Shown here: positions 8,452 to 60,002 of the stretch, in pieces | Layout of the letters: the number at the start of each line of letters is the position of its first letter | Position numbering within the stretch: the stretch's first letter is position 1 | Source of the DNA: Candidatus Palauibacter poriticola | GTDB lineage: Bacteria; Gemmatimonadota; Gemmatimonadetes; Palauibacterales; Palauibacteraceae | Assembly (NCBI GenBank): GCA_012270965.1 | Contig: JAAXHJ010000048.1 | Coordinates: forward strand, 1-64,000 | Direction of reading: 5' to 3' | DNA: 64,000 nt | Translations under genes and position numbers: made by a program | Notes under the pieces: model-generated | Told to the model about the DNA's origin: nothing | Database searches by the model: none | What the model saw: the letters and a program-made list of their open reading frames with translations, nothing else

Positions 8452-10635
8452 ATGTCCGGCTTTTCGACCGCTGCGTTCCCGCGCCTTCCCCGGCGAGTCT
8501 CCAGTTTGCCGGGTCTCGCGCTCGCCGCCAGCCTCCTCCTCCTGCCCCTGCCGGCTTGGGCGCAAGCGGACGCCACGGCGGCCGAGGCCGGCTGGACGCC
8601 CGCCCTGAGCATGCAGTACCGCGCCGTCTCCGGGACCGCGATCTCCCCCGATGGCTCCCGCATCGCGCTCGTCGTGCGCGAGCCGCTGATGGAGGGACGG
8701 CAGTCGGAGTATCTGAGTCACATCTGGATGGCCGACGCGGACGGGACAGGGACCGTGCAGTGGACGCGCGGGAAGGCGTCGGCCGGGTCGCCGCGGTTCT
8801 CGCCCGACGGCGCCTGGCTGAGCTTCACCTCCGGCCGCGAGGGAGAGGGGGAGGCGGGCAGCCAGGTGTGGGCGCTGCCGATGGCGGGCGGCGAGGCCCG
8901 GCGGCTTACGAAGGCGGAAGGGTCGGTGGGGGGATATCGCTGGTCGCCCGACGGGACGCGCATCGCCTTCCTCATGCGGGACCCGCCGACCGCGGAGGAG
9001 AGGAAGGCGCGGGAGGAAAAGCGGGATGTGATCCTCGTGGACCGGGACTACAAGTTCTCGCACCTGTACGTCGCCGCCATCGATCCGGAGTCGGACGAGC
9101 CCGTCGCCGCCGTTCGGCTCACCGCCGGCGACTTCCACATCACCGGCTTCGGCTGGGCCCCCGACGGGGGACGGATCGTGTTCGCGCACCAGGCCGATCC
9201 CCGCATCAACACCGGGCGCTTGAGCGGCGACCTTTCGACGACGACGGTCCCGGATGCGGCGGAGATCGCCCAAATTCTCGCCGCGCGCGGTGCCGAGGGA
9301 GATGACGACGACGACTCGGGCGAAGGCGCGGACGCCGATCCGGCCGCCGTCGGGGAGATCGCGCTCCTCGTGGGCGGGGCGGGGATCGAGCGGAGCCCGC
9401 ACTGGTCGCCGGACGGCGCCTGGATCGCCTACGTGTCGACCGGCAATCAGCCGGAGCCGATCGGCTTGGGGGACGTGTACGTCATGCCGGCCGCGGGCGG
9501 CGAGGCGCGACGGCTGGACACGCCGAACCGCAGCGCGGCGGTGCTCGGTTGGTCGGGGGATTCCTCGGAGCTGCTTCTGCTCGAATCGCTCGGCACGCGC
9601 CGGCACGTGCTGGCCGTCCCAGCCGATGGTGGCGAGTTGCGCTTCATCTCCTACGGGGATGGCGTGGTCGGCTCGGCCGCGCTCACGGATGACGCGAGCC
9701 ACATGGCCTTCACCTGGCAGACCCCCGACGAGCCGTGGGACGTCTTCGTCTCGCCCACGAACGGGTATGCGCCGCAGCAGGTGACGGATCTCCATGCCAG
9801 CGTGCCGCGCCCAGAGATGGGGCGCACGCAACTCGTCTCCTGGACGTCCACGGAAGGGTTCGACATCGAGGGCCTTCTCACCTATCCCGTGGGCTACGAG
9901 GAGGGCGAGCGCGTGCCGCTCATCCTGAACGTGCACGGCGGGCCGGCGGGCGTCTTCAGCCAGAGCTTCACCGGCAGCCCGGCCGCGTACATGCTGCAGT
10001 ACTTCGCACAGGAGGGCTTCGCGATCCTGCGCCCGAACCCCCGCGGCTCGACCGGTTACGGGAAGGACTTCCGCTACGCCAACTTCCAGGACTGGGGCTA
10101 CGGCGACTTCCGGGATCTCATGTCGGGGGTCGACCATGTGATCGAGATGGGGGTGGCGGACGCCGACCGTCTCCTCCTCATGGGCTGGAGCTACGGCGGC
10201 TACATGACCTCGTGGGCCGTCACCCAGACCGACCGCTTCGTGGCGGCGAGCATGGGGGCCGGACTCCCGAACCTGGTTTCGATGACGACGACGACGGACA
10301 TCCAGGACTACCTCGTGGGTCACATGGGGGTTGAGTTCTGGGAGGACTACGAACGCTACGAGCGGCACTCGGCGATGTACCACATCGCGAACGTGGTCAC
10401 GCCGACGCAGGTGATTCACGGGGCCGAGGATCTGCGCGTCCCGTTCACGCAGGGACAGGAGTTCTACCGCGCCCTCGACCGCCGCGGCGTGCCGACGGAG
10501 ATGGTCGTGTACCCGCGCACGCCGCACGGTCCGCGCGAGCCGAAGTTCGTCATGGACGTGTCGGAGCGGATCCTGGCCTGGTTCCGGAAGCACTTGGGAT
10601 CGGCAGCGGTCGCGGCCGAGGACGAGAGCCGCTGA
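8452..10635 (+). CDS. Exported S9-family prolyl oligopeptidase / dipeptidyl aminopeptidase
   Basis: 727 residues: signal peptide (LALAASLLLLPLPAWAQA), a beta-propeller with WSPDGTRIAF-type repeats, then an alpha/beta hydrolase domain. The catalytic triad is visible as Ser580 (GWSYGG), Asp660 (HGAEDLRVP) and His692 (PHGPREP), with the oxyanion-region HGGPAG. Members cleave short peptides after Pro or Ala. An acidic linker (GDDDDDSGEGAD) interrupts the propeller. The ATG has GAGAGGTG just upstream. It is one of four S9 peptidases in the window; all appear exported but they are not tandem copies. Confidence 0.93.
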   Translation: MSGFSTAAFPRLPRRVSSLPGLALAASLLLLPLPAWAQADATAAEAGWTPALSMQYRAVSGTAISPDGSRIALVVREPLMEGRQSEYLSHIWMADADGTGTVQWTRGKASAGSPRFSPDGAWLSFTSGREGEGEAGSQVWALPMAGGEARRLTKAEGSVGGYRWSPDGTRIAFLMRDPPTAEERKAREEKRDVILVDRDYKFSHLYVAAIDPESDEPVAAVRLTAGDFHITGFGWAPDGGRIVFAHQADPRINTGRLSGDLSTTTVPDAAEIAQILAARGAEGDDDDDSGEGADADPAAVGEIALLVGGAGIERSPHWSPDGAWIAYVSTGNQPEPIGLGDVYVMPAAGGEARRLDTPNRSAAVLGWSGDSSELLLLESLGTRRHVLAVPADGGELRFISYGDGVVGSAALTDDASHMAFTWQTPDEPWDVFVSPTNGYAPQQVTDLHASVPRPEMGRTQLVSWTSTEGFDIEGLLTYPVGYEEGERVPLILNVHGGPAGVFSQSFTGSPAAYMLQYFAQEGFAILRPNPRGSTGYGKDFRYANFQDWGYGDFRDLMSGVDHVIEMGVADADRLLLMGWSYGGYMTSWAVTQTDRFVAASMGAGLPNLVSMTTTTDIQDYLVGHMGVEFWEDYERYERHSAMYHIANVVTPTQVIHGAEDLRVPFTQGQEFYRALDRRGVPTEMVVYPRTPHGPREPKFVMDVSERILAWFRKHLGSAAVAAEDESR

Positions 10636-21895: not shown

Positions 21896-23956
21896 TCAGC
21901 TCGTCGCCGGCATCGTCCGGTACTTGTCGAACCACGCCACGATGTTCGCGATCTTGGCCATGAGCTGGCTCGGGCGGCGGCTCATGTCGTGCGAGGCCCC
22001 CGGCAGCCGGATCACGGCCGTGTCGATCCCGCGCAGCTTGAGCGCGTGGAACATCTGGTACGACTCCGACAGCGGCGTCCGCAGATCCTCCTCTCCCGTG
22101 ATGATCATCGTGGGCGTGTTCACGTTCCCCACGAGTGAGATGGGAGAGTACTCCCAGTACGCCTCCGGGTTCTCCCACGGGAGTCCCTCGTAGCGGCTGT
22201 GGTAGTAGCCGTACCAGTTGTCCGCCGTGAGCGTCTTGCTGATCCAGTTGACGACGGGTTTCTGGGCGACGGCGGCTCGGAAGCGGTCCGTCTTGCCGAC
22301 GATCCAAGCCGTCATGATGCCGCCGGCGCTCCCCCCGGTAACGAAGAGGTTGTCCTCGTCGATGTACCCCCGGTCGATGACGGCATCGACGCCGGACATG
22401 AGGTCGTCGTAGTCCTGCCCCGGATAGTTGTGATAGAGGAGGTCCGCGAACTCCTCGCCGTAGCTCGTGCTCCCGCGCGGGTTCGCGTAGAGGACGACGT
22501 AGCCGGCGGCGGCGAGCAGTTGCATTTCCGCCGAGAAGCGGTCTCCGTAGTTCGAGACGGGCCCCCCGTGGATCTCGAGGATAAGGGGATAGCGCCGCTC
22601 CGGATCGAAGTCGGGCGGCTTCACGACCCACCCCTGGATGGGACGGCCGTCGAAGGAGGAATCCCACCACATCTCCTCGACCTCGCCCAGTTGCCGGTTC
22701 GCGAGCAGGTCCTCGTTCAGCGACGTGACGCGACGCACGCCGCGGCCCCTCGCACCGACGGCGACCTCCCCCGGAGCTTCGGGACGGGTTTGGTTGAGCG
22801 CGAAGCTCCCATCGTCGGCGACGCTGAACGAGCCCCCGCCGTAGGGACGCCCGTAGGACGTGCCCCCCAGATCCTCGGCCAGCACTTCGAGATCGCCGTC
22901 GAGCGTGGCGAAGCCGACCTTCGAGTTCCCCTCGTCGTCGTATTGGAAGTAGAGACCGCTTCCGTCGGAGGCCCACACGGGGTTGGAGACGCTGCGGTCG
23001 AGTCCTTCCGTGAGGACGCGCCGCCCGTTCCCGTCAAGGTTCATCACTTGGAGCCGGCTCACCTGATAGGTGCGCGTGCGGTCCTCGTAGCCGACGAAAG
23101 CGATCAGCCGCCCGTCGGGAGAGACGGCCGGATTCCGGTCGGGTCCGGGGCGGTCGGTGAGGGGGCGCACCTCTCCGGTGACGACCGAGACGATGTAGAG
23201 TTCGGAGTTGCGGTAATCGTGGACCCAGTCCTCGTTCCGGTTGGACGAGAAGACGAGGTGCTGGCCGTCCGGCGTCCAGGCGGCCGCGCTCTGGTGCTGG
23301 AAGTCGCCCGCTGTGACCTGCGTCGGCGTCCCGCCCTCGACGGGAACGATGAAGATGTGATCGAAGCCGAAATCCAGATATCCGACGCCGTCCTGCCGGT
23401 TCTTGAAGCGGTCCTCCATGACGGGAGGATCGGCCCACTCCGCCCCGGCGGGCGGCTTCGGCGGCGGGGCGAGGCTCGGCGGCGGGTAGGGAACGAGCTT
23501 GTTGAACGCGAGGTGGCGTCCGTCCGGCGACCAGCGGAGCCCCCGGGGCGACTCGATGAGCTGCGTGAGCGTGGCCTCCTCGCCCGTGTCCATCCATCGC
23601 ACATGGATCTGGCCGTCCGCAGTGTACGCGATGCGGGTTCCGTCGGGAGACCACCGCGGGGAACCGCCCGTCCCGATCCGCCGGTGATTCGACCCGTCGG
23701 CGTTCATGATCCACAGCTCGGACTTCTTCGCGTCCCGCATGATGTCCATCGACGTGCGGACGTACACGACCTGGCCGCCATCGGGCGAGATCCGCGGGTC
23801 CGCGGCGTATTCGATCTCGAACACGTCCATCGGCTCGAAACGCCCCTGCGCAGCCACGCGGTCGGCACCCAGCGCGCCCGAAGCGGCGAACAGGGCCATG
23901 GCGAACTTCGTCATTCGAGTCTTGGGAAGGCTCTTCTCAGGCATCTCACGCATCAT
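21896..23956 (-). CDS. Exported S9-family peptidase (acylaminoacyl-/dipeptidyl-peptidase type)
   Basis: About 686 residues. Signal peptide (MTKFAMALFAASGALGADRV), TolB-like propeller repeats (RWSPDGTRIAY, AVSPDGRLIAF), then a hydrolase domain with HGGPVSNYG and a triad of Ser543 (GGSAGG), Asp624 (GEEDLRTP) and His656 (GASHDMS). It probably degrades short peptides in the periplasm. Start taken at the first of two adjacent ATGs (23956) with CGGGAG upstream; an in-frame extension to 24025 has no ribosome site. A very long antisense frame on the plus strand is a codon-bias shadow. Confidence 0.92.
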   Translation of the reverse strand: MMREMPEKSLPKTRMTKFAMALFAASGALGADRVAAQGRFEPMDVFEIEYAADPRISPDGGQVVYVRTSMDIMRDAKKSELWIMNADGSNHRRIGTGGSPRWSPDGTRIAYTADGQIHVRWMDTGEEATLTQLIESPRGLRWSPDGRHLAFNKLVPYPPPSLAPPPKPPAGAEWADPPVMEDRFKNRQDGVGYLDFGFDHIFIVPVEGGTPTQVTAGDFQHQSAAAWTPDGQHLVFSSNRNEDWVHDYRNSELYIVSVVTGEVRPLTDRPGPDRNPAVSPDGRLIAFVGYEDRTRTYQVSRLQVMNLDGNGRRVLTEGLDRSVSNPVWASDGSGLYFQYDDEGNSKVGFATLDGDLEVLAEDLGGTSYGRPYGGGSFSVADDGSFALNQTRPEAPGEVAVGARGRGVRRVTSLNEDLLANRQLGEVEEMWWDSSFDGRPIQGWVVKPPDFDPERRYPLILEIHGGPVSNYGDRFSAEMQLLAAAGYVVLYANPRGSTSYGEEFADLLYHNYPGQDYDDLMSGVDAVIDRGYIDEDNLFVTGGSAGGIMTAWIVGKTDRFRAAVAQKPVVNWISKTLTADNWYGYYHSRYEGLPWENPEAYWEYSPISLVGNVNTPTMIITGEEDLRTPLSESYQMFHALKLRGIDTAVIRLPGASHDMSRRPSQLMAKIANIVAWFDKYRTMPATS

Positions 23957-37065: not shown

Positions 37066-40000
37066 TCAGCGGCGCCAAGCCGACGCGCCGGGTAGGCCGC
37101 TGCTCACCAGCACTTCGAGTCCCGGTTCGGGGGCGCGCGCATCCGCCGCGCTGAGAGCGAGGGGACCCGCCGGGAGGTCGGAGAGAATGGCCCGCACCTG
37201 ACCGGTCGCCGGATCGCGCAGGATCGCGATCGGAGGCTCGCTTCCCTCCGTCATCTCGACGCTGCCGTCCGGCCCGGAGAGCACGAGGCTCGCCATTTCC
37301 GTGGCCCACTCCGGCTGGACGGGCAGCGCGAACGCGAACCCGGACCGCCCGTCACCATCCCACACGCCGGCCATCGTGAAGCTGAGCGAAAAAAGCTCGC
37401 CGCCGTCCGCGCGCCGTCCGGTCAACCGCCACGGTCCGCCGGAGGTGGGCACGGCCGGCCGCGTTTCGACGACGAAGGCCGGATCGAGCCAAGGATTCCC
37501 GTCCGCGGTGACGCCTCCGGACACGAGGAGCGTCCGAGACGCCGCCGGCGGCTCCCACACCTCGAGCGGATCCTGGAGGCGGAAGCGCAAGGCGTTCGTG
37601 AAGTAGTAGTCGCTAACCCACGTGGGGTCGCAATAGCTCATGAAATCCGCCCGGTCGGGAGGCACGAGCGACCCGCCCTCGCGAGGATCGTAGCCCCACA
37701 CGCCGGATCGCGCGTTGTCGTGGGGGAATGACGGATCCGCGCCCGCGGGATCGCCGCAGTCCGCGTGGCGCAGGCTGAGGTTGTGTCCAAGTTCGTGCGC
37801 GATGGTCTCCGCATTGAGGACCGAGACACTGGTCTTCCCGCGATACAGGAGGCTGTCCGGCCCGAACGGCAGCCACGCAACGCCAGCGGCTCCAGCGGGA
37901 TCCGGGATGAGCCCCATCCAGTGTCCGGCCCCGTCCTCCATGAGCCGTATGGTCCCGACATCCGCCAGGATGTCGAAGATGTCGTTGGTGTCGACCGTCA
38001 CGCTGCCATGCCGCGTGATTTCAAGTTCGCCCACGGGAAGGTAATGGTTCGTCTGCCAGAAGATCTCGTCGTCCGGGTCGGCGTTGGCGACCACCGTCAC
38101 GGCCTCACGGTCGTTGTCGACGGTCGAGACGAACGGGATCAGGGTCAAGTACATCGGAGGCACGTCCCTCACATCAACCGCCGTTCGCCCGGTCTCGGGG
38201 ATGCGCTTCGACACGCCGAGATTCGGATCCAGCGTACCATCGGGGTCGACCTCGACGACCATCTCCAGTCCGGGCTGGATCACGTCGGCGGGGATGACGG
38301 CGTGAGGGGAGAGGGAGAGTTCGCCCTCCCGCACTTCGGTCGGAATCATCGACGACCCGGCGGCGATGTCCTCCACGTGTACTTCCGCCCCGTCCACGAA
38401 GAACGTTGCCCGGACGGGCGGGATCGTCGCACCGGTCTCCTCTTCGGACATCACGAAGACGCGCAGGAGCGCCTCTTCCCCGGCGATGAGCGGGACCGGA
38501 TAGTCGCGCGACTGCGCCGCCTGCGTCAGGTAGGCCTGCGCGTGGGCCTCGGCCCCGCATGGCCGGATCCGGTACTTGAGGAGCGCGGACTCCAGCCACA
38601 TGCGGAAGGCGGGGGTCCGCGGCATGCAAAGCCCCGTGCCGTCCGCTCGCAGTTCGAAGATCTCCTCGAGCTGGGTCATGCCCTCGGGCAGCGGACCGGA
38701 CAGATCCGGGTTGTCATGGAGCCACACTCGGTACAGTGCGCCGGCATCGCCGAGTTCCGGGGGCAGCGGCCCGGACAACCGATTGTTCTCCGCCAAGAGG
38801 AACGTGAGGCCGTTGCTCTGCCCGAGTTCCGCCGGAAGCGGTCCCTCGATCATGTTGTCGGAGATCCAGAGTGAGAACAGCTGATCGAGCTGGCCGAGCC
38901 AAGCGGGCAGCGGTTCCGACAACTGGTTGCCGTGGACGCGGATCGTACTGAGGTTCCGGAGTGCCGCGAGGCTTTCGGGCAGGCCGCCCTCGATCCGGGT
39001 TTCCGTGATGCGAAGCACTTGGAGTGCGGTCATGGCGCCGAACTCCTCGGGAATCGAACCGTCGAAGCGGGCTTCGTAGAGGTGGATTTCCCGCAGGTTG
39101 GTGAGGTTGCCCAGCTCGGGCGGGATGGGGCCGGACATCTGGTTCCCGCCCACCCACAGCACTTCAAGCTTCGCGAGGTTTCCGATCTCCGGCGGGATCT
39201 CACCCTTGAACTCGTTCCCGTCGATATCCATCCGGCGCAGCTCGGTAAGCTCGCCGATTTCCGCCGGGACCTCGCCCTCGAGCCGGTTGTAGTCCAAGCG
39301 CAGCACCCGCAGGTAGGGGAAGTACCGGATCTCCGGGGGGACCTCTCCCGACAGGTTGTTTCGGTTCAGGTCGATCTGCGTCACCCTGCCCGCCGAATCC
39401 ACCGCAATGCCGTACCAGTCATCGAGTGGGGCGTTGGTCAACCAGTTGTTCGAGTTGGTCCAGCTCGGTCCGCCCATGGCCTCGTAGAGCGTCGCGAGGT
39501 CCGACCGCTCCTCGTTACACGCGAGGAACTCGCCGTCGCGCGTCGGGATCGCATTCAGCCACGCCCTGAATCCCTCGTCGCGCACCGTACACAGCATCGT
39601 GCCGCCGTAGTGGAGCGTCTCCATCCCTAGCTCCGAGAGAGAGAACGGGATTGGACCGGAGAGTTTGTCGTTCCCGCCCACCCGCAGCTCGGTGAGGAGG
39701 GCCAGGCTGCCGAGCTCCTCCGGAAGCTGGCCGTTCAGGCCGTTCTCGCTCAGGTCGATCACCGTCACGCGGGATTGCTCGTTCGCCGTCACGCCGTACC
39801 AGCTCCCGACCGGCGCGTCGGTTCCCCAGCCGTCGTTGTTCGTCCACTCCCCTCCGCGCGTGCCGATGTAGAGGTCCATAAGCGTCGCGCGATCCAGACT
39901 GTGTACCGCGAGGGGAGCGGTGGTCGAGGCGGGTCCCGACGTGGCGCTGAGACTCGCGTTTCCCTCCTTCAGACCGGTCACGAGCCCGGATCCATCGACC

Positions 40001-40326
40001 GTCGCGACCGCCGGATCGCTGCTCGTCCAAGTCACCACTGCGTCGGAGATCACCTGCGCTCGATCATTGAAGACGCGGGCGCGCACGCGAACCGTATCGC
40101 CGGCCACGACCGCGATCTCGGCCGGTTCCAGCGTGACGCTCGCCGCCACGGGCGCCGCCGGCTGGGGGGGTGGCGTCGTCGACGGCGGTGGCGACGTCGT
40201 GTCGTCCCCCCCACAGGAGAGGACGGCCAGACCGAGAAAGCCGAGCACTGCGGAACGCGAGACTCGGGCGCGAGAGGAACGAGAGGAATCGGGCCTTCCG
40301 GAGGTGGTGCGGCTGCGCTTCGTCAT
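37066..40326 (-). CDS. Lipoprotein with Ig-like domain, plant-type LRRs and a metzincin-like protease domain
   Basis: 1086 residues. Order: lipoprotein signal (LGFLGLAVLSC), Pro/Thr linker, Big_2-type Ig-like domain (about 60-140), two LRR-cap units (YIGTRGGEWTNNDGW), about a dozen plant-type LRRs (IGNLAKLEVLWVGGNQMSG; about 190-590), a beta-rich domain (600-800), then HELGHNLSLRH (His844, His848, His854) and the Met-turn-like DFMSYC. Metzincins normally have Gly in HExxHxxGxxH; here it is Ser. A C-terminal beta domain follows. The part after the LRRs is homologous to the protein at 52578-54383. It probably sits on the cell surface and cuts or binds a protein partner; activity is inference. 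Confidence 0.82.
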   Translation of the reverse strand: MTKRSRTTSGRPDSSRSSRARVSRSAVLGFLGLAVLSCGGDDTTSPPPSTTPPPQPAAPVAASVTLEPAEIAVVAGDTVRVRARVFNDRAQVISDAVVTWTSSDPAVATVDGSGLVTGLKEGNASLSATSGPASTTAPLAVHSLDRATLMDLYIGTRGGEWTNNDGWGTDAPVGSWYGVTANEQSRVTVIDLSENGLNGQLPEELGSLALLTELRVGGNDKLSGPIPFSLSELGMETLHYGGTMLCTVRDEGFRAWLNAIPTRDGEFLACNEERSDLATLYEAMGGPSWTNSNNWLTNAPLDDWYGIAVDSAGRVTQIDLNRNNLSGEVPPEIRYFPYLRVLRLDYNRLEGEVPAEIGELTELRRMDIDGNEFKGEIPPEIGNLAKLEVLWVGGNQMSGPIPPELGNLTNLREIHLYEARFDGSIPEEFGAMTALQVLRITETRIEGGLPESLAALRNLSTIRVHGNQLSEPLPAWLGQLDQLFSLWISDNMIEGPLPAELGQSNGLTFLLAENNRLSGPLPPELGDAGALYRVWLHDNPDLSGPLPEGMTQLEEIFELRADGTGLCMPRTPAFRMWLESALLKYRIRPCGAEAHAQAYLTQAAQSRDYPVPLIAGEEALLRVFVMSEEETGATIPPVRATFFVDGAEVHVEDIAAGSSMIPTEVREGELSLSPHAVIPADVIQPGLEMVVEVDPDGTLDPNLGVSKRIPETGRTAVDVRDVPPMYLTLIPFVSTVDNDREAVTVVANADPDDEIFWQTNHYLPVGELEITRHGSVTVDTNDIFDILADVGTIRLMEDGAGHWMGLIPDPAGAAGVAWLPFGPDSLLYRGKTSVSVLNAETIAHELGHNLSLRHADCGDPAGADPSFPHDNARSGVWGYDPREGGSLVPPDRADFMSYCDPTWVSDYYFTNALRFRLQDPLEVWEPPAASRTLLVSGGVTADGNPWLDPAFVVETRPAVPTSGGPWRLTGRRADGGELFSLSFTMAGVWDGDGRSGFAFALPVQPEWATEMASLVLSGPDGSVEMTEGSEPPIAILRDPATGQVRAILSDLPAGPLALSAADARAPEPGLEVLVSSGLPGASAWRR

Positions 40327-41275: not shown

Positions 41276-43441
41276 ATGCGTACCGCGATCTTCCCCGGCT
41301 CCCGGCTTTTTGCCGCCGGTTCGGTTCCCGCCGCCGGTTCGGTTCCCGCCGCCGGTGCCGTTCCCGCCGTCGGTTCCGCTCTCGCTGCCGGTGCCGTTCC
41401 CGCTGCGGGTTCCGTTCTCCGGGCCGGTTCCCTTCTCGCTGCCGGTTTCGTTCTCTCCGTCATCCTCTGCGCCGGATTGGCCGCCCAGGAGGGCCGGCCG
41501 ATGACGGTCGAGGACGTCCTCGCCCTCAAGAACCCGTCACAAGTCTCCTTGAGCCCGGACGGACGGTGGGTGGCCTACGTCGTCACGGAACGGGACATGG
41601 AGGAGGACCGTCAGGAAACCAACGTGTGGGTCGTCCCCGCTGCGGGCGCTCCGGCGGAGGTCCGTCAGCTCACCTTCCGCCCCGGATCCGACGATTCACC
41701 GGTCTGGCACCCATCGGGAGAATGGCTCGCCTTCTCCTCCGATCGGGAAGGGACAAGACAGGTCTACGGGATCCGGCCCGACGGCGGCGAGGCGTGGCAG
41801 GTGACGTCCCACGAGACCTCGGTCGGGAGCTTCCGCTTCGCGCCCAACGGCCGGCGGATCGGTTTCGTGGCGAGCCCGTCCGCGACGGAAGCGGACCGCG
41901 AACTCGAGGCCCTGCGCGGCCGCCCGATGGTCTGGGACTCCGTCTACACGGACCAGTGGTCGCGCCTCCACGTTGCCGAACTCGAGGACGATGTGGCCGA
42001 CGAGGGAGTGAGGTGGTCGCCGGACGATCTCCACGTGACGTCCTTCGTATGGTCACCCGACTCGCGAGCCGTCGCCTACGGGGCTCGCTCGTCCCCCGTC
42101 TTGAGGACGACCTACTACGGCGCGACCTACGTGCAGGAGGGCGCGGAAGCGGAGGCCCGGAGCGTCACGGCGATGCCGGGCGGGGAGAATCCGGTGGCGT
42201 GGGACGACGAGGTTGGCCTCATCGTGTCCGGGACGGGGCAGCTCCTCGGAACCTTCAACCGACAGTTGTGGCGCGTGCCGGTCGACGGGGGCGGCGGCGC
42301 GCCGGAGCCGGTGTCGCTCACCGCCGGGCTGGATGCGAACGCGAACCTCGTCCACATCGATGGCTCGCGGCTCATCGTCTCAGCGGCGCGACGCACCGGA
42401 GCCACCGTGTACCGGATCCCGCTCGCCGACGGTGCCGCGGCGGGACCGCCGGACGATCTGACCGATGGCCGGCGCTACTACTCCGGCACCTCCGCCTCGG
42501 CGGACGGGCGCTTTCTCGCACTCACCGCCGAGGACGGCATGGCGCCGCCGGACCTCTTCATCACCCCGATGGACGCCTTCCGCCCCGAGCGCCTGACCGA
42601 CCTGAACCCGCGGGTGGCCAGCCTCGCACTCGGCGCGCAGCGGGTCGAGTCGTGGCGTTCGCGAGCCGGCGGCGAGGAAATCGAAGGCGTACTCACCCTT
42701 CCCGCCGGGTACGAGGAGGGGGACCGCGTCCCGCTGGTCCTCGTGATCCACGGCGGCCCGGCCGGGATCTCCTCGGATCGCTTCAACGCGACGCGGGGCG
42801 CCTACCCGGTGCAGGTGTACGCGGGGATGGGGTTCGCCGTACTGCAGCCGAACTACCGGGGTTCGAGCGGCTACGGGGAGCGTTTTCGGGGTCTCAACCG
42901 CGGCGACATCTCCGGCCGGGACTGGGTCGATATCGACTCCGGCGTGGATGCGATGGTCGAGCGCGGGATCGCGGACCCCGACCGGCTGGCCGTGAGCGGA
43001 TGGAGCTTCGGAGGACACCACACCTACTGGGGCATCACGCAGACCGACCGCTTCAAGGCGGCGAGCGCGGGGGCCGGCGCGAACGATCTCATCTCCATGT
43101 ACTCGCAGACGGACATCCCCGAGTTCTACCACACCTACCTGGGTCCGAAACCGTGGGAGGACTGGGATCTTTACGAGGAGCGCTCCGCCTACCGCCATGT
43201 TGAAAACGTGACGACACCGCTGTTGATCCAAGTGGGCGAGAGGGACGAGCGGGTTCCCGCCGAACAGAGCATCCAGTTCTTCGAGGCCGTGCGCGCCATC
43301 GGCAGGGCTCCGACGACTCTTGTCCTGTATCCGGATCAACCACATGGTGTTAGATCTCCGCGCCTACAGCGGGATCTCATGTCGAGAAACGTGGAGTGGC
43401 TCACCCGCTGGGTTTTGGAAGCGGAGGCGCTGGTGCCGTGA
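41276..43441 (+). CDS. Exported S9-family peptidase with a repeat-expanded N-terminus
   Basis: 721 residues. The export signal is odd: MRTAIFPGSRL, then eight hexapeptides of the AAGSVP type, then a normal hydrophobic core and cleavage region (FVLSVILCAGLAAQEG). After a propeller (LSPDGRWVAYVV, FVWSPDSRAVAYGA) comes the hydrolase domain with HGGPAG and a triad of Ser577 (GWSFGG), Asp657 (GERDERVP) and His690 (PHGVRSP). Start chosen at the ATG with AGGGG seven bases upstream; another ATG at 41246 overlaps the previous stop. It probably cleaves short peptides outside the cytoplasm. Confidence 0.9.
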   Translation: MRTAIFPGSRLFAAGSVPAAGSVPAAGAVPAVGSALAAGAVPAAGSVLRAGSLLAAGFVLSVILCAGLAAQEGRPMTVEDVLALKNPSQVSLSPDGRWVAYVVTERDMEEDRQETNVWVVPAAGAPAEVRQLTFRPGSDDSPVWHPSGEWLAFSSDREGTRQVYGIRPDGGEAWQVTSHETSVGSFRFAPNGRRIGFVASPSATEADRELEALRGRPMVWDSVYTDQWSRLHVAELEDDVADEGVRWSPDDLHVTSFVWSPDSRAVAYGARSSPVLRTTYYGATYVQEGAEAEARSVTAMPGGENPVAWDDEVGLIVSGTGQLLGTFNRQLWRVPVDGGGGAPEPVSLTAGLDANANLVHIDGSRLIVSAARRTGATVYRIPLADGAAAGPPDDLTDGRRYYSGTSASADGRFLALTAEDGMAPPDLFITPMDAFRPERLTDLNPRVASLALGAQRVESWRSRAGGEEIEGVLTLPAGYEEGDRVPLVLVIHGGPAGISSDRFNATRGAYPVQVYAGMGFAVLQPNYRGSSGYGERFRGLNRGDISGRDWVDIDSGVDAMVERGIADPDRLAVSGWSFGGHHTYWGITQTDRFKAASAGAGANDLISMYSQTDIPEFYHTYLGPKPWEDWDLYEERSAYRHVENVTTPLLIQVGERDERVPAEQSIQFFEAVRAIGRAPTTLVLYPDQPHGVRSPRLQRDLMSRNVEWLTRWVLEAEALVP
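41309..41452 (+). repeat. Eight 18-bp repeats inside a signal-peptide region
   Basis: Units of 18 bases around GGTTCGGTTCCCGCCGCC encode FAAGSV PAAGSV PAAGAV, PAVGSA LAAGAV PAAGSV and two degenerate copies. The first units are most alike and the last most diverged, next to the original hydrophobic core. Confidence 0.92.
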
Positions 43442-49990: not shown

Positions 49991-52009
49991 TCACCCCGCG
50001 GCGCAGCCGCCCAGGTGCCGGGTGAAGAACTCCTCCAGCCGCGAATACATGTCGACGCGATTGTCCGGGTTCCGGAAACCGTGCGCCTCGTCCGGGTACG
50101 TCTTCACCTCGACGCTCTTGCCGAGCCGCTCGAATTCGGCCACCGCGTTCTCGAAGTTCTGGATCGGCACGCGGCGGTCGAGTTCCCCGTGCATGAGGAG
50201 AACGGGAGCCGTGATGTCGGCGATGCGCGACACGACGTTGCTCTTGGCGTACGTGTCGGGGCGTTCGTCGGGTGTTCCGCCGTGGCCGGTGACGGAGAAG
50301 ATCTTCCCCAGCCGGTCCGTGTACTCGAGCGTGTTCAGCTTCGAGTAGGCGCCGCGCATGGGGACGGCCGCGTCGAACTTGTCCGGGGTCAGGCTGATCG
50401 CCGACAGCGACATGCTCCCGCCGTAGCTGCCGCCGTAGATCCCCACCCGCCCGTTCACGTAGGGGAGCGTGCGGAGGAAATCGGCCGCCGCGCCCGCATC
50501 CCTCGCCTGGTCCCAGAGCCAGTCCTCGACGGAGAGATCCTGGAACTCGCGCCCGAAACCGGATCCCCCGCGATAGTTGATCGCGAGCACTACGAACCCT
50601 TTCGAGGCGAGGTATTGTTCCGTGAGGTTCAGGCCCTGCTGGTAGGAGTTCGTCCCGCCTCCGTGAACTTGGACGAGCGCCGGGCAGGCGGCCCCCTCCT
50701 CCCATTGCGGCGGGCGGTACAGGAAGCCCTGGATCCGGAGTCCATCGAAGCTGGGGAAGGCGATCTCCCGGGGTGCCACGGCCGACCGCCAGGACGGTGA
50801 GAACGAGGTGAGACGCTCCGCGACGCCGCCCATGAGGTCGAGGGCGTACGCTTCCCCTCCCCGCGTCGGCGACGAGTGGACGAAGGCGAGGGACCGGGCG
50901 CCCGCCGTGTGGCTGACGCCGGAGATCGTCCCCTCCATGTGCGTGACTCGGGTGGCCACGCCGCCGGCGGCGGGCACCGTCCAGACGTTCATCGTGCCGC
51001 GTTCGAGGTAGGGGAAGTAGACGAACGCGCCGTCCTCCGACCAGGATGGGGCATGCCGCATCGCCGCATCGGTCGCGTAGACCTGCATGTCCACGATGCG
51101 CTCCGCCGCCCCGGCTCCCGATTCCGGATGCTCAACACCCGCCGCGGGATGCTCAACACCCGCCGCCTGATCCTCGGTACCGGCCTCCGGATCCTCGGCT
51201 CCCGCCTCCAGGTCCTCGATCACGTAGATGTAGGAGAGGTCCTCGTACCAGTATTCGTCCTTCGCGGTGCCGAAAACGGCGATCCGATCGCCCTCCGGCG
51301 ACCACACGGGGGTGGACATCGCCATCAGCGTGCGGGTGAGCTGCCGGTGGTCTCCGGTCTCGACATCGACGAGCCAGAGGTCGTCGTGCCAGTAATCGGA
51401 CGCGTTCGACACATAAAGAATCTCGCGGCCATTCGGCCGCCAGGCGGGCGCGAAGCGTGGATCGTCGACCGACATGGCGGCCTCGGTCAGCTGCCGCGGC
51501 GGGGCCGAGCCATCGGCCGGCACGAGCCAGATGTCCTGGTGGCCGCTCGCCGTCGAGTAGAACGCGATCGTCTCCCCATCCGGCGAAAAGGCCGGTGCCC
51601 GGACACCCTCCATGCGGTCCATCAGGGGACGCGCCTCGACATCGCCGACGTTCGCGACGCGCACCTGGCCGCCGGCCGCGAAGGTGATCCGGTCGCCGCC
51701 GGGTGCCCAAGCCGGACCCGAGCCCCGAAGCCAGAAGCGCGGCGCCCCGAAGCCGCCGTTCTCGCGGCGAGCCGCCAGATACAGCCCCGAACCGTCCGGC
51801 CCCGAGCCGGAAACCGCGAGGTGCCGTCCATCGGGCGAGATCGAGACGCCGCGCACGCCCGCGTTGTTGCGGTGGATGTTGGCAAGCGTAAGGTCGAGTT
51901 CCGCCGGCGCGCCCCCGGGCGCCGCATCTCCCGGCGCCCCGCACGCCGCCCAGACCAAGACCAGAGTGACGACCCAAAAAGCACCAAGAAGCCGATTCGC
52001 GTCCGTCAC
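49991..52009 (-). CDS. S9-family peptidase lipoprotein
   Basis: 672 residues. Lipoprotein signal (FWVVTLVLVWAAC), TolB-like propeller repeats (SISPDGRHLAVSG, AFSPDGETIAFYS), and the hydrolase domain with VQVHGGGTNSYQ and a triad of Ser528 (YGGSYGGS), Asp611 (HGELDRRVP) and His643 (EAHGFRNP). The propeller contains an acidic heptapeptide repeat (EDPEAGT type) around residues 265-300. GTG start 11 bases after the barrel-protein stop, so it is the last gene of a four-gene minus-strand cluster. Lipid anchoring suggests it processes peptides at a membrane, alongside the metzincin lipoprotein. Confidence 0.92.
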   Translation of the reverse strand: MTDANRLLGAFWVVTLVLVWAACGAPGDAAPGGAPAELDLTLANIHRNNAGVRGVSISPDGRHLAVSGSGPDGSGLYLAARRENGGFGAPRFWLRGSGPAWAPGGDRITFAAGGQVRVANVGDVEARPLMDRMEGVRAPAFSPDGETIAFYSTASGHQDIWLVPADGSAPPRQLTEAAMSVDDPRFAPAWRPNGREILYVSNASDYWHDDLWLVDVETGDHRQLTRTLMAMSTPVWSPEGDRIAVFGTAKDEYWYEDLSYIYVIEDLEAGAEDPEAGTEDQAAGVEHPAAGVEHPESGAGAAERIVDMQVYATDAAMRHAPSWSEDGAFVYFPYLERGTMNVWTVPAAGGVATRVTHMEGTISGVSHTAGARSLAFVHSSPTRGGEAYALDLMGGVAERLTSFSPSWRSAVAPREIAFPSFDGLRIQGFLYRPPQWEEGAACPALVQVHGGGTNSYQQGLNLTEQYLASKGFVVLAINYRGGSGFGREFQDLSVEDWLWDQARDAGAAADFLRTLPYVNGRVGIYGGSYGGSMSLSAISLTPDKFDAAVPMRGAYSKLNTLEYTDRLGKIFSVTGHGGTPDERPDTYAKSNVVSRIADITAPVLLMHGELDRRVPIQNFENAVAEFERLGKSVEVKTYPDEAHGFRNPDNRVDMYSRLEEFFTRHLGGCAAG
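51126..51209 (-). repeat. Tandem repeat, 4 x 21 bp, in the S9 propeller
   Basis: Units at 51126, 51147, 51168 and 51189; the first two differ by one base. They encode EDPEAGT, EDQAAGV, EHPAAGV-type heptapeptides, a likely flexible acidic loop. Confidence 0.9.
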
Positions 52010-52020
52010 ACCGCCCCCTT

Positions 52021-52581
52021 CTAATCGAATTCGAGTGCGACGCCCAGATCGATGCCGAGCGCCACGGCATGGTCGGTGCTCGACGGCGTGTCGGCCGACA
52101 TGCGCCGCCACGACAGGCCCGGCCCGATACGCAGGCGGCCGACGCGAAGCCGGAGTCCGGCGGCCGCCTCCAGACCGGCACCCGCCCGCGGGGACTCCCC
52201 TTCCGTCCCGACGCGCATCGTGCCGTAGAGGACGCCGACGCGCCCCCACAGCCAGCGTCGCGACAGCTCCGCGCCCAAGGCGGCGTGGTTGCCGGTGACG
52301 GTCGGCTCGCTCCCGCGGCAGAATCCCTCCCGGCAGCCGAAGGCGGTCCGGACATACGCCGCGGAGATGGCGATGTGCGGGCGCAGCCGCCGCGCAATCC
52401 GGATTTCGTACGACAGGTCGGGAGCCCATTCGAGGCCCGCCGCGGTGGATGTGTGATTCCCCACCGCAAGACCGCTCCGCACCTCCACGGAGGTCTGGGC
52501 CGCGGCGGCGCGCCCCGCGACCGGCAGGCCGGCGGCCACCAAGGCGAGGGCAAGGCTGGCGCGGCACCACCGGCCCGTCAT
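52021..52581 (-). CDS. Predicted outer-membrane beta-barrel protein
   Basis: 186 residues. Signal peptide (ASLALALVAAGLPVAGRAAA), then alternating polar/hydrophobic strands (SYEIRIARRLRPHIAISAAY, LWGRVGVLYGTMRVG, LRLRVGRLRIGPGLSWRR) and a C-terminal strand ending in Phe-Asp (LGIDLGVALEFD). Length and pattern fit an eight-stranded barrel. Two Cys (GCREGFCRG) lie in one loop and may be bridged. Its ATG overlaps the stop of the metzincin lipoprotein by four bases. It could anchor or present that protein, which is inference from context. Confidence 0.74.
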   Translation of the reverse strand: MTGRWCRASLALALVAAGLPVAGRAAAAQTSVEVRSGLAVGNHTSTAAGLEWAPDLSYEIRIARRLRPHIAISAAYVRTAFGCREGFCRGSEPTVTGNHAALGAELSRRWLWGRVGVLYGTMRVGTEGESPRAGAGLEAAAGLRLRVGRLRIGPGLSWRRMSADTPSSTDHAVALGIDLGVALEFD

Positions 52582-54383
52582 TGCCGGGGGCCCGAGATCC
52601 CGGCGTGCGGAACCCCGTCGCTGACCATGAAATCCAACCCCTCCGCCCACGGAGGCACCTTCCGCGGGTCGCGCAGGATGCCCCGAAGACGGCGCGTGCC
52701 GGGGTCCAGGACCAAAGCCGCCGCGCGACCCCCCGAACGCCCGATCGCGACCACCCCGCCGGGACCGGACAGCCGGACTCGCTCCAGTCCATCGGAACCG
52801 GCCCAGCGGCTCTCGTAGGGAATCGTGAAGACGAACTGTCCGCCCCCGTACTCCACTTCGTCCGGAGTGAATGAGAAGGAGAACAGGGACCGGCCCGCCG
52901 CGTCGAATCCATCCAGGCGGTACGGACCCTCCCCGGCCGGCGGCTTCGGGGGCGCGTTGATGACGAAGGCGGGTTCCAGCAGAAGATCCGCGGCGCCGGC
53001 GTTGCCCCACAGGAGCAGCGTCGGCTCGGGGTCGGACCTCCGCAGGATCAACGATTCGTGCCTCCGCCGGAACTCCATGGCCTTGACGAAATGATAGTCG
53101 CTGATCCAACTCGGATCGCAGTACGTCATCAGATCCCGATACTCGGCCGGGTCGACCATTCGCGTGTTCCCGCGCCGGGTCTCGTATCCGAACACTCCGA
53201 TGGAGCCCTCCTCGTACGGAAAGTCCGGATCGGCGTTCAGCGCCCCGCCGCAGGGAGCATGCCGGAGCCCCATGTTGTGCCCCAGCTCGTGGGCAAACGT
53301 GTCGATATCGAGGACTCCCACGCCGACCGGCAGCCCGATGTAGCCCAAGCCCCTGAAGGGGGACCCGGGAGGCTCCGCGAGGGCACCGTAGTAGTAGTCC
53401 CGCCGCCGCTCGATGAGCCGGAGCACGCTAATCTCGCGCAGAAGCGCCAGCCAACCCGCCGCGGTCGTGAGGTCCGCCGTCGTGCGGTAGGGCTCGCGTA
53501 TCCTCAGTTCCAGTTCACCGATCGGGAGTACGGAACGCACGAACTTCATCCTTACGCCCGTCGCCGTCATTCCGTCGGCCCACCTCACGGCCGTCTCCGC
53601 GTCGGCGGAGTGCGCCACCGGCACCACCGTCAGACCCATCGGGGGAACCGTCAGCACATCCAGCCTCAGGCGCCCCTGGGCGGGCACGCGCCGGTCGCTT
53701 CCCGGGACCGCCGGCACGAGGCCATCCGGATCCAGCTCCACGACGAGTTCGACGCCGGGCTGGAGGACCCACCCCGGCACCATCCCGTTGAATGATCGGT
53801 CGAGCCTGCCCTCCTCGGCCTCCAGCGGGATCTGGTCCGATGGCGGATCCAGCCGCAGCGTGTGGACCGGTGCGCCATCGTGATGGAAGGTCGCCGCCGG
53901 CCGGGGGCGGAAGAAGCTGGTTCTGTCTCCCGTGACGAAGACGCGAAGGAGTGCGGGGCGGCCCGCGATCAGAGGAACGTCCCCGCCCAGCGTCTGGACC
54001 GCCTGCGTCAGATGCACGGCGGAGGCTTCGATCTTCACGCTCGCCGGGTTCACCCTCAGCCAGGCTTCGGCCCGCAGGCTCGCCACCTCGGCGGTGACCC
54101 GCGTCACGCGACCCCCCTCTAGGCCGATGACCTCCCCGTCCGCTTGGACTGCGGCGACCGATGGATCGGCTGCGGCCCAGCGCGGAGGCGCCCAGGCCGG
54201 GATCGTGCTGAAGGCCGCACCGCCCTCGTCGAGAACCCGCACCCGATACCGGACGGCCTCGCCCTCGAGGACGGTGGCGTCGGCGGGGAGAAGCTCGAGC
54301 GTGCGCGGAACCCGCTCGGGCTGCGATGCCAGGTCGCCGCAGCCGGCCACCGCGAGGACCGCGCATAGGAATCGCTTGTTCAC
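52578..54383 (-). CDS. Metzincin-like lipoprotein, paralogue of the LRR-metzincin
   Basis: 601 residues. Lipoprotein signal (FLCAVLAVAGCGD), an Ig-like domain (LELLPADATVLEGEAVRYRV), a beta domain, then HELGHNMGLRH with zinc ligands His365, His369 and His375 and the Gly of the metzincin consensus, plus a Met-turn in DLMTYCDPSW. Shared blocks with the 37066-40326 protein include VPLIAG-x2-ALLRVFV, QPGVELVVELDPDG and VPPMGLT. It lacks the LRR block. GTG start with AAGGTGA upstream. Predicted surface metalloprotease; the substrate may be host, prey or self proteins. Confidence 0.8.
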   Translation of the reverse strand: MNKRFLCAVLAVAGCGDLASQPERVPRTLELLPADATVLEGEAVRYRVRVLDEGGAAFSTIPAWAPPRWAAADPSVAAVQADGEVIGLEGGRVTRVTAEVASLRAEAWLRVNPASVKIEASAVHLTQAVQTLGGDVPLIAGRPALLRVFVTGDRTSFFRPRPAATFHHDGAPVHTLRLDPPSDQIPLEAEEGRLDRSFNGMVPGWVLQPGVELVVELDPDGLVPAVPGSDRRVPAQGRLRLDVLTVPPMGLTVVPVAHSADAETAVRWADGMTATGVRMKFVRSVLPIGELELRIREPYRTTADLTTAAGWLALLREISVLRLIERRRDYYYGALAEPPGSPFRGLGYIGLPVGVGVLDIDTFAHELGHNMGLRHAPCGGALNADPDFPYEEGSIGVFGYETRRGNTRMVDPAEYRDLMTYCDPSWISDYHFVKAMEFRRRHESLILRRSDPEPTLLLWGNAGAADLLLEPAFVINAPPKPPAGEGPYRLDGFDAAGRSLFSFSFTPDEVEYGGGQFVFTIPYESRWAGSDGLERVRLSGPGGVVAIGRSGGRAAALVLDPGTRRLRGILRDPRKVPPWAEGLDFMVSDGVPHAGISGPRQ

Positions 54384-54450
54384 GCTGCTCACCTTGTTCC
54401 CGGGCCACATCGCAGGCAAGCCGGACCCCCTCGCGGTCAAGCCCCCGCCG

Positions 54451-55464
54451 TCACGGCTCCGGCGGGCGCACTTGACGCAACCCCGCGGTGATGAGCGTCC
54501 ACTGCAACATCATCTGGTCGCGCACCGGCATGGGGACCAGCCCGTGTTTCTTCGCCTCGGCGGAGACCGCGGTCGGCGCGGTCCCCTTGGACAGCTCGCT
54601 CCCCCAAGCGTCGAGCCGCCCCTTCCAGCGTTCGGCGGCCGGATCCGGAGGGCCTGGACTGTCGCCCACGCCGGGGAGGATGAAAAGCGGCATCTCCGAG
54701 ACGAGGGTGAGCGTGTCGTGGCCAAGACCGCGCAGCGTTTCCATCGAACTCGGCCAGAAGCGGGACGCGGTCTCGGAGTCCCCCAAGGTTTCGAAGTGGG
54801 CGGCCATGCGGCTCGAGTCGGGTCGCGAGGCGAAGCCCCGCTCGAAGCGGAAGAAGCCCTTCTCCCCGTGGCGCTCGGCATCGTGCAGGGCGTAGCCGAG
54901 CGCTCGCGCGCGTTGACGGCACGAGGCCTTCAGCGCTTCGCAACGATGCTCCCAAGCGCGATCGATGAGGAAAAAGGGGCCCCCGGCGAACCCCATACCG
55001 TGCAGGGAGGCGTGCAGCACGAAGGGTCGATCGCACGTGCGCCACCAATCGTACGCCGCACGGTTCTCGGGCCGCGCTCCGGGGTCGGCGTCGTCGCGCG
55101 GGAAGCCGAATTCGATGTCGTCGCCGGGCAGCTCCCGCACCTTGCCCGCCAAGTATCGCCCGAGATCGTACGCGTCCGTACCGGCATCCTGCCACGGGGC
55201 GTTCCGGCTCTCCCCATCGGGGTTGATGTGCGGGATGATCCACCACTGATGGCGGGTGAGCATCGGATCCTCCGGGTCGAGTCCCGCCAGGCAGCCGGCG
55301 AGCCGACGCAGGAGACGCGGACCCACCGGTTCGTCGGCGTGGCAGCCGCCGAGCAGGCTCACGGCCTCGCGCCCCCGCCCGAAGCGGAAACCCACGACCG
55401 GCCGCCCTTCGCGCGACGACCCGAGTACGCGCCCGGAACTCGCGGAAGTGTCCCGGGAGGCCAT
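54451..55464 (-). CDS. M14-like zinc carboxypeptidase
   Basis: 337 residues. GCHADEPVG gives the HxxE zinc motif and VLHASLHGMGF the third histidine; NPDGESRNAPWQ is the substrate-binding Asn-Arg-like region of M14 enzymes. The SEMPLF segment near residue 265 may hold the catalytic Glu. No clear signal peptide is seen, unlike its neighbours. It is the first of the four-gene cluster, 67 bases ahead of the metzincin gene. It may trim peptides C-terminally or act on cell-wall peptides. Confidence 0.8.
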   Translation of the reverse strand: MASRDTSASSGRVLGSSREGRPVVGFRFGRGREAVSLLGGCHADEPVGPRLLRRLAGCLAGLDPEDPMLTRHQWWIIPHINPDGESRNAPWQDAGTDAYDLGRYLAGKVRELPGDDIEFGFPRDDADPGARPENRAAYDWWRTCDRPFVLHASLHGMGFAGGPFFLIDRAWEHRCEALKASCRQRARALGYALHDAERHGEKGFFRFERGFASRPDSSRMAAHFETLGDSETASRFWPSSMETLRGLGHDTLTLVSEMPLFILPGVGDSPGPPDPAAERWKGRLDAWGSELSKGTAPTAVSAEAKKHGLVPMPVRDQMMLQWTLITAGLRQVRPPEP

Positions 55465-59300: not shown

Positions 59301-60002
59301 GTTCTGCGTGAGATAGTCGTCCGGGCGGGAAGCCAGCGGGGCGTAGGCGGCAAGCTCCCGCAGGAGGTCGAGAGCGCGGTCGAGTTCGGCCTCGCGGTCC
59401 CACTCGGGTCTGGACCACGGCGCGTCGAAGTCGCGCTGGTCCACGAGGCTGCCGGCCGCCGCCCGCAGCGCCGCGCGCGGACCGCCCGAATTCCGCGCAT
59501 AGCGACGGCGCAGGGCTCTGCTCACACCGGGACCGGGATCCGCCAGCGCGCCCTCGAACCAGATCTCGAAGGCGCCGTCGAGGAGACGGCCGGCTTCGTC
59601 CTCCGCGGCGACCCGGAAGGCCGGATCGACGCCGGCCTCGATCGGCCGTTCGCGCAACAAGTCGGCGCAGAAGGCGTGGATCGTGCCGATGTGGGCAAGC
59701 TCCAAGTGGCCCAGCGCACGCGAGAGGCGCTCGCGGGCTTCTCCGTGCTCCTCGCCGAGCCGAGCCTCCTCGATCGCCGCCCGCAGCCGGAGTTTCATCT
59801 CGCCGGCCGCCTTCTCGGTGAAGGTGACGGCGACGATGTCCTCCAGCGTGCCCAGACCGTGCCGCAGCACCTCGACGATCCGGCCCGTGAGCGCCGTCGT
59901 CTTCCCCGTCCCCGCCGCCGCTTCGACGAAGAGCGTGTCCTCGAGATCGTTCCGGATCGCGTCGCGCGCCTCCTGGTCGGCGAGTCTCCCCGGCCGGGTC
60001 AC
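56307..60002 (-). CDS. addA: AddA-type ATP-dependent helicase/nuclease subunit A
   Basis: 1231 residues. UvrD-like helicase with Walker A AAAGTGKTT near residue 30, VAVTFTEKAAGEMK, DEFQDTDPLQ (motif II), GDPKQSIYRFRRADVM (motif III) and MTVHKAKGLEFPVVILAD. The C-terminus has a PD-(D/E)XK nuclease with VEGVADLAF and VVDYKTDRR. With AddB it unwinds and resects double-strand ends for recombination, and degrades foreign DNA. The GTG start overlaps the addB stop by four bases. A three-copy hexapeptide (AKPDDA) lies in the linker before the nuclease domain. Confidence 0.92.
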   Translation of the reverse strand: MTRPGRLADQEARDAIRNDLEDTLFVEAAAGTGKTTALTGRIVEVLRHGLGTLEDIVAVTFTEKAAGEMKLRLRAAIEEARLGEEHGEARERLSRALGHLELAHIGTIHAFCADLLRERPIEAGVDPAFRVAAEDEAGRLLDGAFEIWFEGALADPGPGVSRALRRRYARNSGGPRAALRAAAGSLVDQRDFDAPWSRPEWDREAELDRALDLLRELAAYAPLASRPDDYLTQNLRHIERGVREIARREKTCGRDYDYLEGWLRSFVRARWRGWFWRGFRSRDFGGGLAKADVVARRDAVREEVEEILQTADAELAAHLRDELWPVTERYERVKRRDGCLDFVDLLIRARDLLRDIPEIRRHYRQRFTRFFVDEFQDTDPLQVEILLLLCGEDPEEARPEHIVPASGKLFVVGDPKQSIYRFRRADVMLYEKTKRRLRDARARVLHLSTSFRSQPRLQAAVNGAFATRMKAAEDGSQAEYVPLARFRGDVGSQPAIIALPVPRPYGRLGRVWGTAVEESLPAAVAEMVRWLVGESGWVVTERNHPERPVRVQARHICLLFRRFQKWGEDVTRPYVRALEARAVPHVLVGGRSYHDREEVLAVRNALTAIEWPDDRLAVYAALRGPLFSLGDRALFEFGVDAGPLHPLAGWETDGDNGENGRRDVTALKPELRDVATVLGLLGDLHRQRNRRPIPETLRRLLSAARAHAGIAIWPTGEQALANVLRLVDRARVFERRGSPSFRAFLDRLEDEAERGQSEEAPIVEEGTEGVRMMTVHKAKGLEFPVVILADMTCPAAHEPPSQHMDAGRRLWAQRLCGATPRDILDNAETERRREMAEADRLAYVAATRARDLLVVPALGDGRDGHGGFSQEDREWWLESLNPAVYPPRGARRQPSSAESLGAPAFRAESVLDRPDGKGGQHRAPRDSVAPGLHAAEAGTDVVWWDPAALDLDAHPGAGDRQRRLLEVEREEQPTLDFEAGMGAHREWQASRAAKLEAGGRRTMSVVTAGAIARRAAESAKPDDAAKPDDAAKLDDAHKADAAAHGDTHVAWIDVPRPGAEGAEGAGRPGGERFGDLVHRILAEAPLDANSGALDGLAGTLGRTLGSPETEIVAAAALAARALEHEVLDRARAALVSGPGAVQREVPVFHVREAAAPAGERDGGRDEAIVEGVADLAFREVTGSGPLWTVVDYKTDRRPAAARTQYEAQVACYVEAIERANGEPARGIVLAL
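56896..56949 (-). repeat. Tandem repeat, 3 x 18 bp, in the AddA linker
   Basis: GCGTCGTCGGGCTTGGCG-like units at 56896, 56914 and 56932 encode AKPDDA, AKPDDA and AKLDDA ahead of the nuclease domain. Confidence 0.92.

Follow-up and report, generated by a model that had tools for sequence, protein, structure and literature searches.

StcE, of peptidase family M66 (PF10462), is a soluble secreted protease, and lipoproteins that work together with a beta-barrel at the outer membrane include RcsF with OmpA, TbpB with TbpA, and LptE with LptD. We analysed a window of 64,000 nucleotides from Candidatus Palauibacter poriticola (positions 1 to 64,000 of contig JAAXHJ010000048.1, assembly GCA_012270965.1) in which the gene of an M66/StcE-like metzincin, very probably a lipoprotein, overlaps that of a predicted outer-membrane barrel. 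The metzincin resembles StcE in its HExxHxxGxxH motif, in its multi-domain beta architecture and in its fold, as StcE (3ujz) was the top PDB match of its model (E 1.2e-12). However, its sequence match to M66 covers only about 53 residues round the zinc site, its whole-chain TM-score against StcE is only 0.33, with several domains arranged otherwise, it is predicted to be lipid-anchored, its gene is coupled to that of a barrel, and many members of its family lack the bend glycine. The barrel agrees with the OmpA transmembrane domain, NspA, Ail, OmpX and OmpW in its size, in how many strands it has and in having short turns inside and longer loops outside, but its identity to them is 11-15%, and it differs from them in an invariant cysteine pair in outer loop 2 and in the coupling of its gene to that of a protease. 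Unlike the lipoproteins of the three described lipoprotein-barrel systems, the present one is a large predicted protease, and the pair is known here from genes and models.

The pair lies within a run of four minus-strand genes that the first-pass annotation had read as one surface proteolysis system of three different proteases and a barrel, and the gene boundaries and spacings on which that reading was built were all confirmed. An M14 zinc carboxypeptidase-like gene (54451..55464, 337 aa, with HADE, LHASLHG and SEMP motifs and no signal peptide; PF00246, 1.3e-11) is followed after 67 bases by the metzincin gene (52578..54383, 601 aa), whose GTG start at 54383 was the sole start candidate common to every ortholog in the genus. 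The metzincin stop overlaps the start of the barrel gene (52021..52581, ATG start at 52581, 186 aa including the signal peptide) in a 4-base ATGA (52578..52581), and 11 bases past the barrel stop lies the GTG start (52009) of a gene for an S9 prolyl-oligopeptidase-family protein (49991..52009; GGSYGGS/D/H triad; PF00326, 1.7e-41). The assignment to three different protease families was upheld by the Pfam matches to M14, M66 and S9, that to M66 (PF10462, 1.6e-6) scoring 27.8 bits against a gathering cut-off of 20.6 over residues 346-398, and the call of a barrel stood up to structure prediction.

The metzincin begins with a 14-residue signal peptide up to a lipobox cysteine (MNKRFLCAVLAVAGC), and this Cys14 was invariant in 20/20 orthologs, which makes the protein very probably a lipoprotein, judging from its N-terminus. 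N-terminal Ig-like (Big_2-like) and beta domains precede the catalytic domain and a C-terminal beta domain in a model with a pLDDT of 92.2, built from 60 sequences. The zinc site reads HELGHNMGLRH and the Met-turn DLMTYC; The zinc site was conserved throughout the 20 orthologs, and HExxH and the third histidine were invariant in the metzincin alignments A1 and A3. C377 and C421, which flank the zinc site, are invariant as well. The bend glycine of HExxHxxGxxH is retained in the window protein and is S, N, D, R or T in many relatives; among the loci L076-L154 it is replaced in many M66-like metzincins that keep the other zinc-site residues, which is unusual for metzincins. Because the zinc site was intact in every scored copy except one long paralog, these proteins do not appear to be pseudo-enzymes, and the idea that the tandem copies described below are pseudo-enzymes was not supported, the site being intact in almost all of them. 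Several metzincin matches in genomes of family f6 (L022, L024, L027 and L028) contained a single in-frame stop within the alignment. The S9 protein, which had been called the second lipoprotein of the cluster, is a less secure case; its lipobox is an atypical VWAAC, most orthologs have SAAC or SVAC, and one (G010) has glycine in place of the cysteine; the protein is at most a probable lipoprotein.

Modelled with AlphaFold2 from 23 sequences, the barrel has eight strands (mean pLDDT 85.7), joined by short turns at one end of the barrel and by longer loops at the opposite end, and a hydrophobic N-terminus that ends in AAAAQ. Its nearest solved folds were OmpA, NspA, Ail, OmpX and OmpW (Foldseek E 1e-8 to 1e-5). 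The sequence match of the window protein to OMP_b-brl (PF13505) was weak (0.2; 12.3 bits vs a cut-off of 28.7), while a distant family member (L128) scored 30.7 bits and 12/23 members matched at E<=1. Cys83 and Cys88 (FGCxxGFC) were invariant in 23/23 barrels and lie in loop 2, which is predicted to be extracellular by standard topology; this loop matches the strands in conservation and ranks with the most conserved loops. Three genomes (G093, G101 and G111) hold weak barrel relatives that also have a cysteine pair and adjoin no metzincin, and the cysteine loop therefore did not arise for partnership with a metzincin; given these unlinked relatives, the loop is not exclusive to the pair.

Adjacency of the two genes proved to be general. 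At a threshold of E<=1e-20 for strong barrel homologs we found 31 loci in 29 genomes, and 30 of the 31 adjoined an M66-like metzincin. The remaining locus (L193; G046:C1:2620000-2632000) has an intact barrel gene preceded by no more than a C-terminal metzincin remnant, as might result from decay or replacement of the protease. The pair was found in marine bacteria, for the most part associated with sponges, that belong to at least seven genera and two families. Its 4-base overlap was kept in 13/13 Palauibacter genomes, at 8/11 evaluable loci outside the genus and at further loci in the genome collection, for a total of at least six genera. Coupling of the metzincin and the barrel by start-stop overlap, as had been proposed, is thus a conserved feature, and the two genes are a genuine pair, retained in many lineages and usually start-stop-coupled. 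Outside the genus, identity to the window proteins was 36–48% for the metzincin and 34–46% for the barrel, and two distant pairs showed 37% and 28% (L113, in the MAG CSSed162cmB) and 31% and 28% (L128, in a GSL MAG), respectively. One family often has the extended unit metzincin–barrel–metzincin, whose downstream metzincins form a clade of their own (SH-aLRT 100); a barrel-metzincin-barrel-metzincin arrangement also occurs, consistent with tandem duplication or reordering. Linkage to a barrel could not be treated as one simple clade of the metzincin tree, which needs about 7 label changes and places the two distant pairs outside the main group (support 87). Six metzincins from records titled Gammaproteobacteria (L098, L101, L103, L111, L121 and L125) group with those of Gemmatimonadota, and these titles may be wrong.

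Such conservation bears on whether the two proteins are partners at all, as the metzincin and the barrel could be no more than envelope genes that share a transcript and are passed on as a single cassette, with no physical or functional partnership. Co-regulation or joint transfer can hold gene pairs together, and the genome has other stop-start overlaps, the addB and addA genes of the window also overlapping by 4 bases (59999-60002); since overlaps of this length are nothing unusual in a genome of this kind, the argument for the pair rests on conservation of the overlap in distant lineages. There the linkage has outlasted divergence to 28-37% identity as well as tandem duplications and changes of gene order, and the pair stays linked while every other neighbour is lost, all of which speaks against co-transcription alone and leaves it, in our estimation, an unlikely explanation, albeit one to be taken seriously.

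A further point against mere co-transcription is the kind of metzincin that barrels accompany. Metzincins of this family occupy seven near-full loci in the source genome, alongside fragments. One of them, in the window (37066-40326, minus strand), encodes a 1086-aa probable lipoprotein with an Ig-like domain, leucine-rich repeats and a C-terminal M66-like metzincin; it is a distant paralog of the pair's metzincin with the zinc site HELGHNLSLRH, in which the bend glycine is replaced by serine. Sponge-type Gemmatimonadota MAGs have many LRR-protease fusions of this kind, and the four long paralogs scanned in relatives were Ig-like (Big_2)/LRR fusions. The LRR-fused proteases share the catalytic and C-terminal domains of the pair's metzincin at roughly 40-48% identity but carry leucine-rich repeats and extra Ig-like domains and have no barrel alongside. 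Barrels adjoined short lipoprotein metzincins in 21 loci, and none was found beside a long fused paralog in any locus examined. About eight loci (L093-L097, L099, L105 and L116), a few of them on cut contigs, have a short metzincin and no nearby barrel, indicating that the barrel is not always needed.

Conservation of the pair did not extend to its two flanking proteases. The order M14-metzincin-barrel occurred in 13 genomes, all of the window's genus, among the 119 relatives searched, and most Palauibacter genomes keep the order of all four genes. However, in the genus members fetched a block of ~17 kb (addB, addA, an HHH gene, M14, metzincin, barrel, S9 and a beta-lactamase-like gene) is kept whole, and it includes genes of unrelated function, addA and addB, at similar identity, as well as the beta-lactamase-like gene in the opposite orientation. 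As the whole block is equally syntenic, gene order within the genus does not set M14 or S9 apart from the other genes, both of which proteases are unlinked to the pair outside it. Strong M14 orthologs (E below 1e-50) were present in 43 genomes and lay beside a metzincin in 13 of these, in one genus only; those outside the genus, mostly at 54–64% identity, never adjoined one, and in a congener (G014) M14 is present without metzincin, barrel or S9 at the site. We detected no hydrophobic N-terminus or export signal in the M14 protein of the window or in its orthologs (maximum 12-residue hydropathy of 0.51 at the N-terminus, vs 2.4-2.6 in the other three proteins), and an enzyme without a signal peptide is not part of a surface cluster, although it had been placed in one.

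The S9 gene was displaced or absent at the site in 5/13 close relatives: another S9 gene lies between it and the barrel in G007, G015 and G005, a 2-kb gap separates the two in G008, and it is missing in G012, so that the 11-base spacing is not general among genus members. Its best relatives outside the genus were located elsewhere, unlinked to the pair. S9 domains are frequent in the source genome, with about 28 matches in 3.56 Mb. Four of them are in the window, at 9991-10602 (plus strand), 21920-22540 (minus strand), 42809-43414 (plus strand) and 50006-50623 (minus strand).

The first-pass annotation had envisaged a membrane complex in which endoproteolysis feeds the S9 peptidase and the carboxypeptidase. 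That four genes lie on the same strand with short gaps in the window, in an order kept in most Palauibacter genomes, speaks for such a system; however, the background synteny of the addAB-containing block with its divergent gene, the location of M14 elsewhere in 30/43 genomes, the insertions and losses at the S9 gene and the multiplicity of S9 proteins, and the unexported M14 leave the four-gene system unsupported and, taken together, largely refute it. We found no sign of substrate hand-over between the enzymes, and we regard serial action of the three proteases at the barrel as highly improbable. M14 and S9 are ordinary neighbours, outside the conserved unit; they would be general peptidases that adjoin the pair by chance in this genus.

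We propose that the functional unit is the metzincin-barrel pair, in which the barrel, as an outer-membrane partner dedicated to a lipid-anchored M66-like protease, docks or positions it, a reading to which we assign a probability of roughly 0.55. According to this model, the metzincin would be lipidated at Cys14 and, as its +2 residue is not Asp, sorted to the outer membrane, where its Ig-like N-terminal domains may keep the M66/StcE-like catalytic domain clear of the membrane. The barrel would be translated from the metzincin's message, usually via stop-start coupling, and its strands, together with a surface-exposed outer loop putatively stapled by a disulfide, would serve as the docking or positioning partner of the protease. 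In sponge tissue, sediment or brines the complex may then cut extracellular proteins, perhaps O-glycosylated ones or those of the matrix; cleavage of mucin or matrix is a guess by analogy with StcE. Alternatively, the barrel could be a substrate or regulated target of the metzincin, by trimming of its outer loops or in periplasmic quality control, rather than its anchor or docking partner. Genes of a protease and its dedicated target often lie side by side, one outer loop of the barrel is conserved, and the catalytic site of the metzincin is intact. However, a predicted disulfide holds loop 2, which is highly conserved and not a variable cleavage site, the barrel is mostly strand with short turns, and the metzincin belongs to a StcE-like family with an architecture suited to large extracellular substrates; we consider it distinctly unlikely that the barrel is a target. 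The docking or positioning reading might be carried further, to a barrel that is needed to place, orient or expose the lipid-anchored M66-like protease at the surface, the two forming a display module that occurs as metzincin-barrel-metzincin cassettes in sponge symbionts; this stronger form is speculative, and we hold it to be rather unlikely.

Many of the isolate codes (RHO, COS, IRC and SB06xx) denote sponge MAGs, and CSSed stands for soda-lake sediment and GSL for the Great Salt Lake. Palauibacter, of the order Palauibacterales, is a genus of Gemmatimonadota whose known habitats are sponges, corals, marine sediments and saline soils (PMC10469786). The protease family and the barrel fold are of known kinds, and we found no published description of the coupled pair or of its cassettes in the open-licence literature. 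As its coupling is kept across families amid changing neighbours, the pair is a testable candidate for a means of placing a lipid-anchored protease at the outer membrane. More broadly, the M66-like proteases of sponge-dwelling Gemmatimonadota, which occur as lipoproteins and as Ig-like/LRR fusions, make up a large family that seems to be undescribed, and this points to the degradation of host matrix or glycoproteins as a candidate symbiosis trait.
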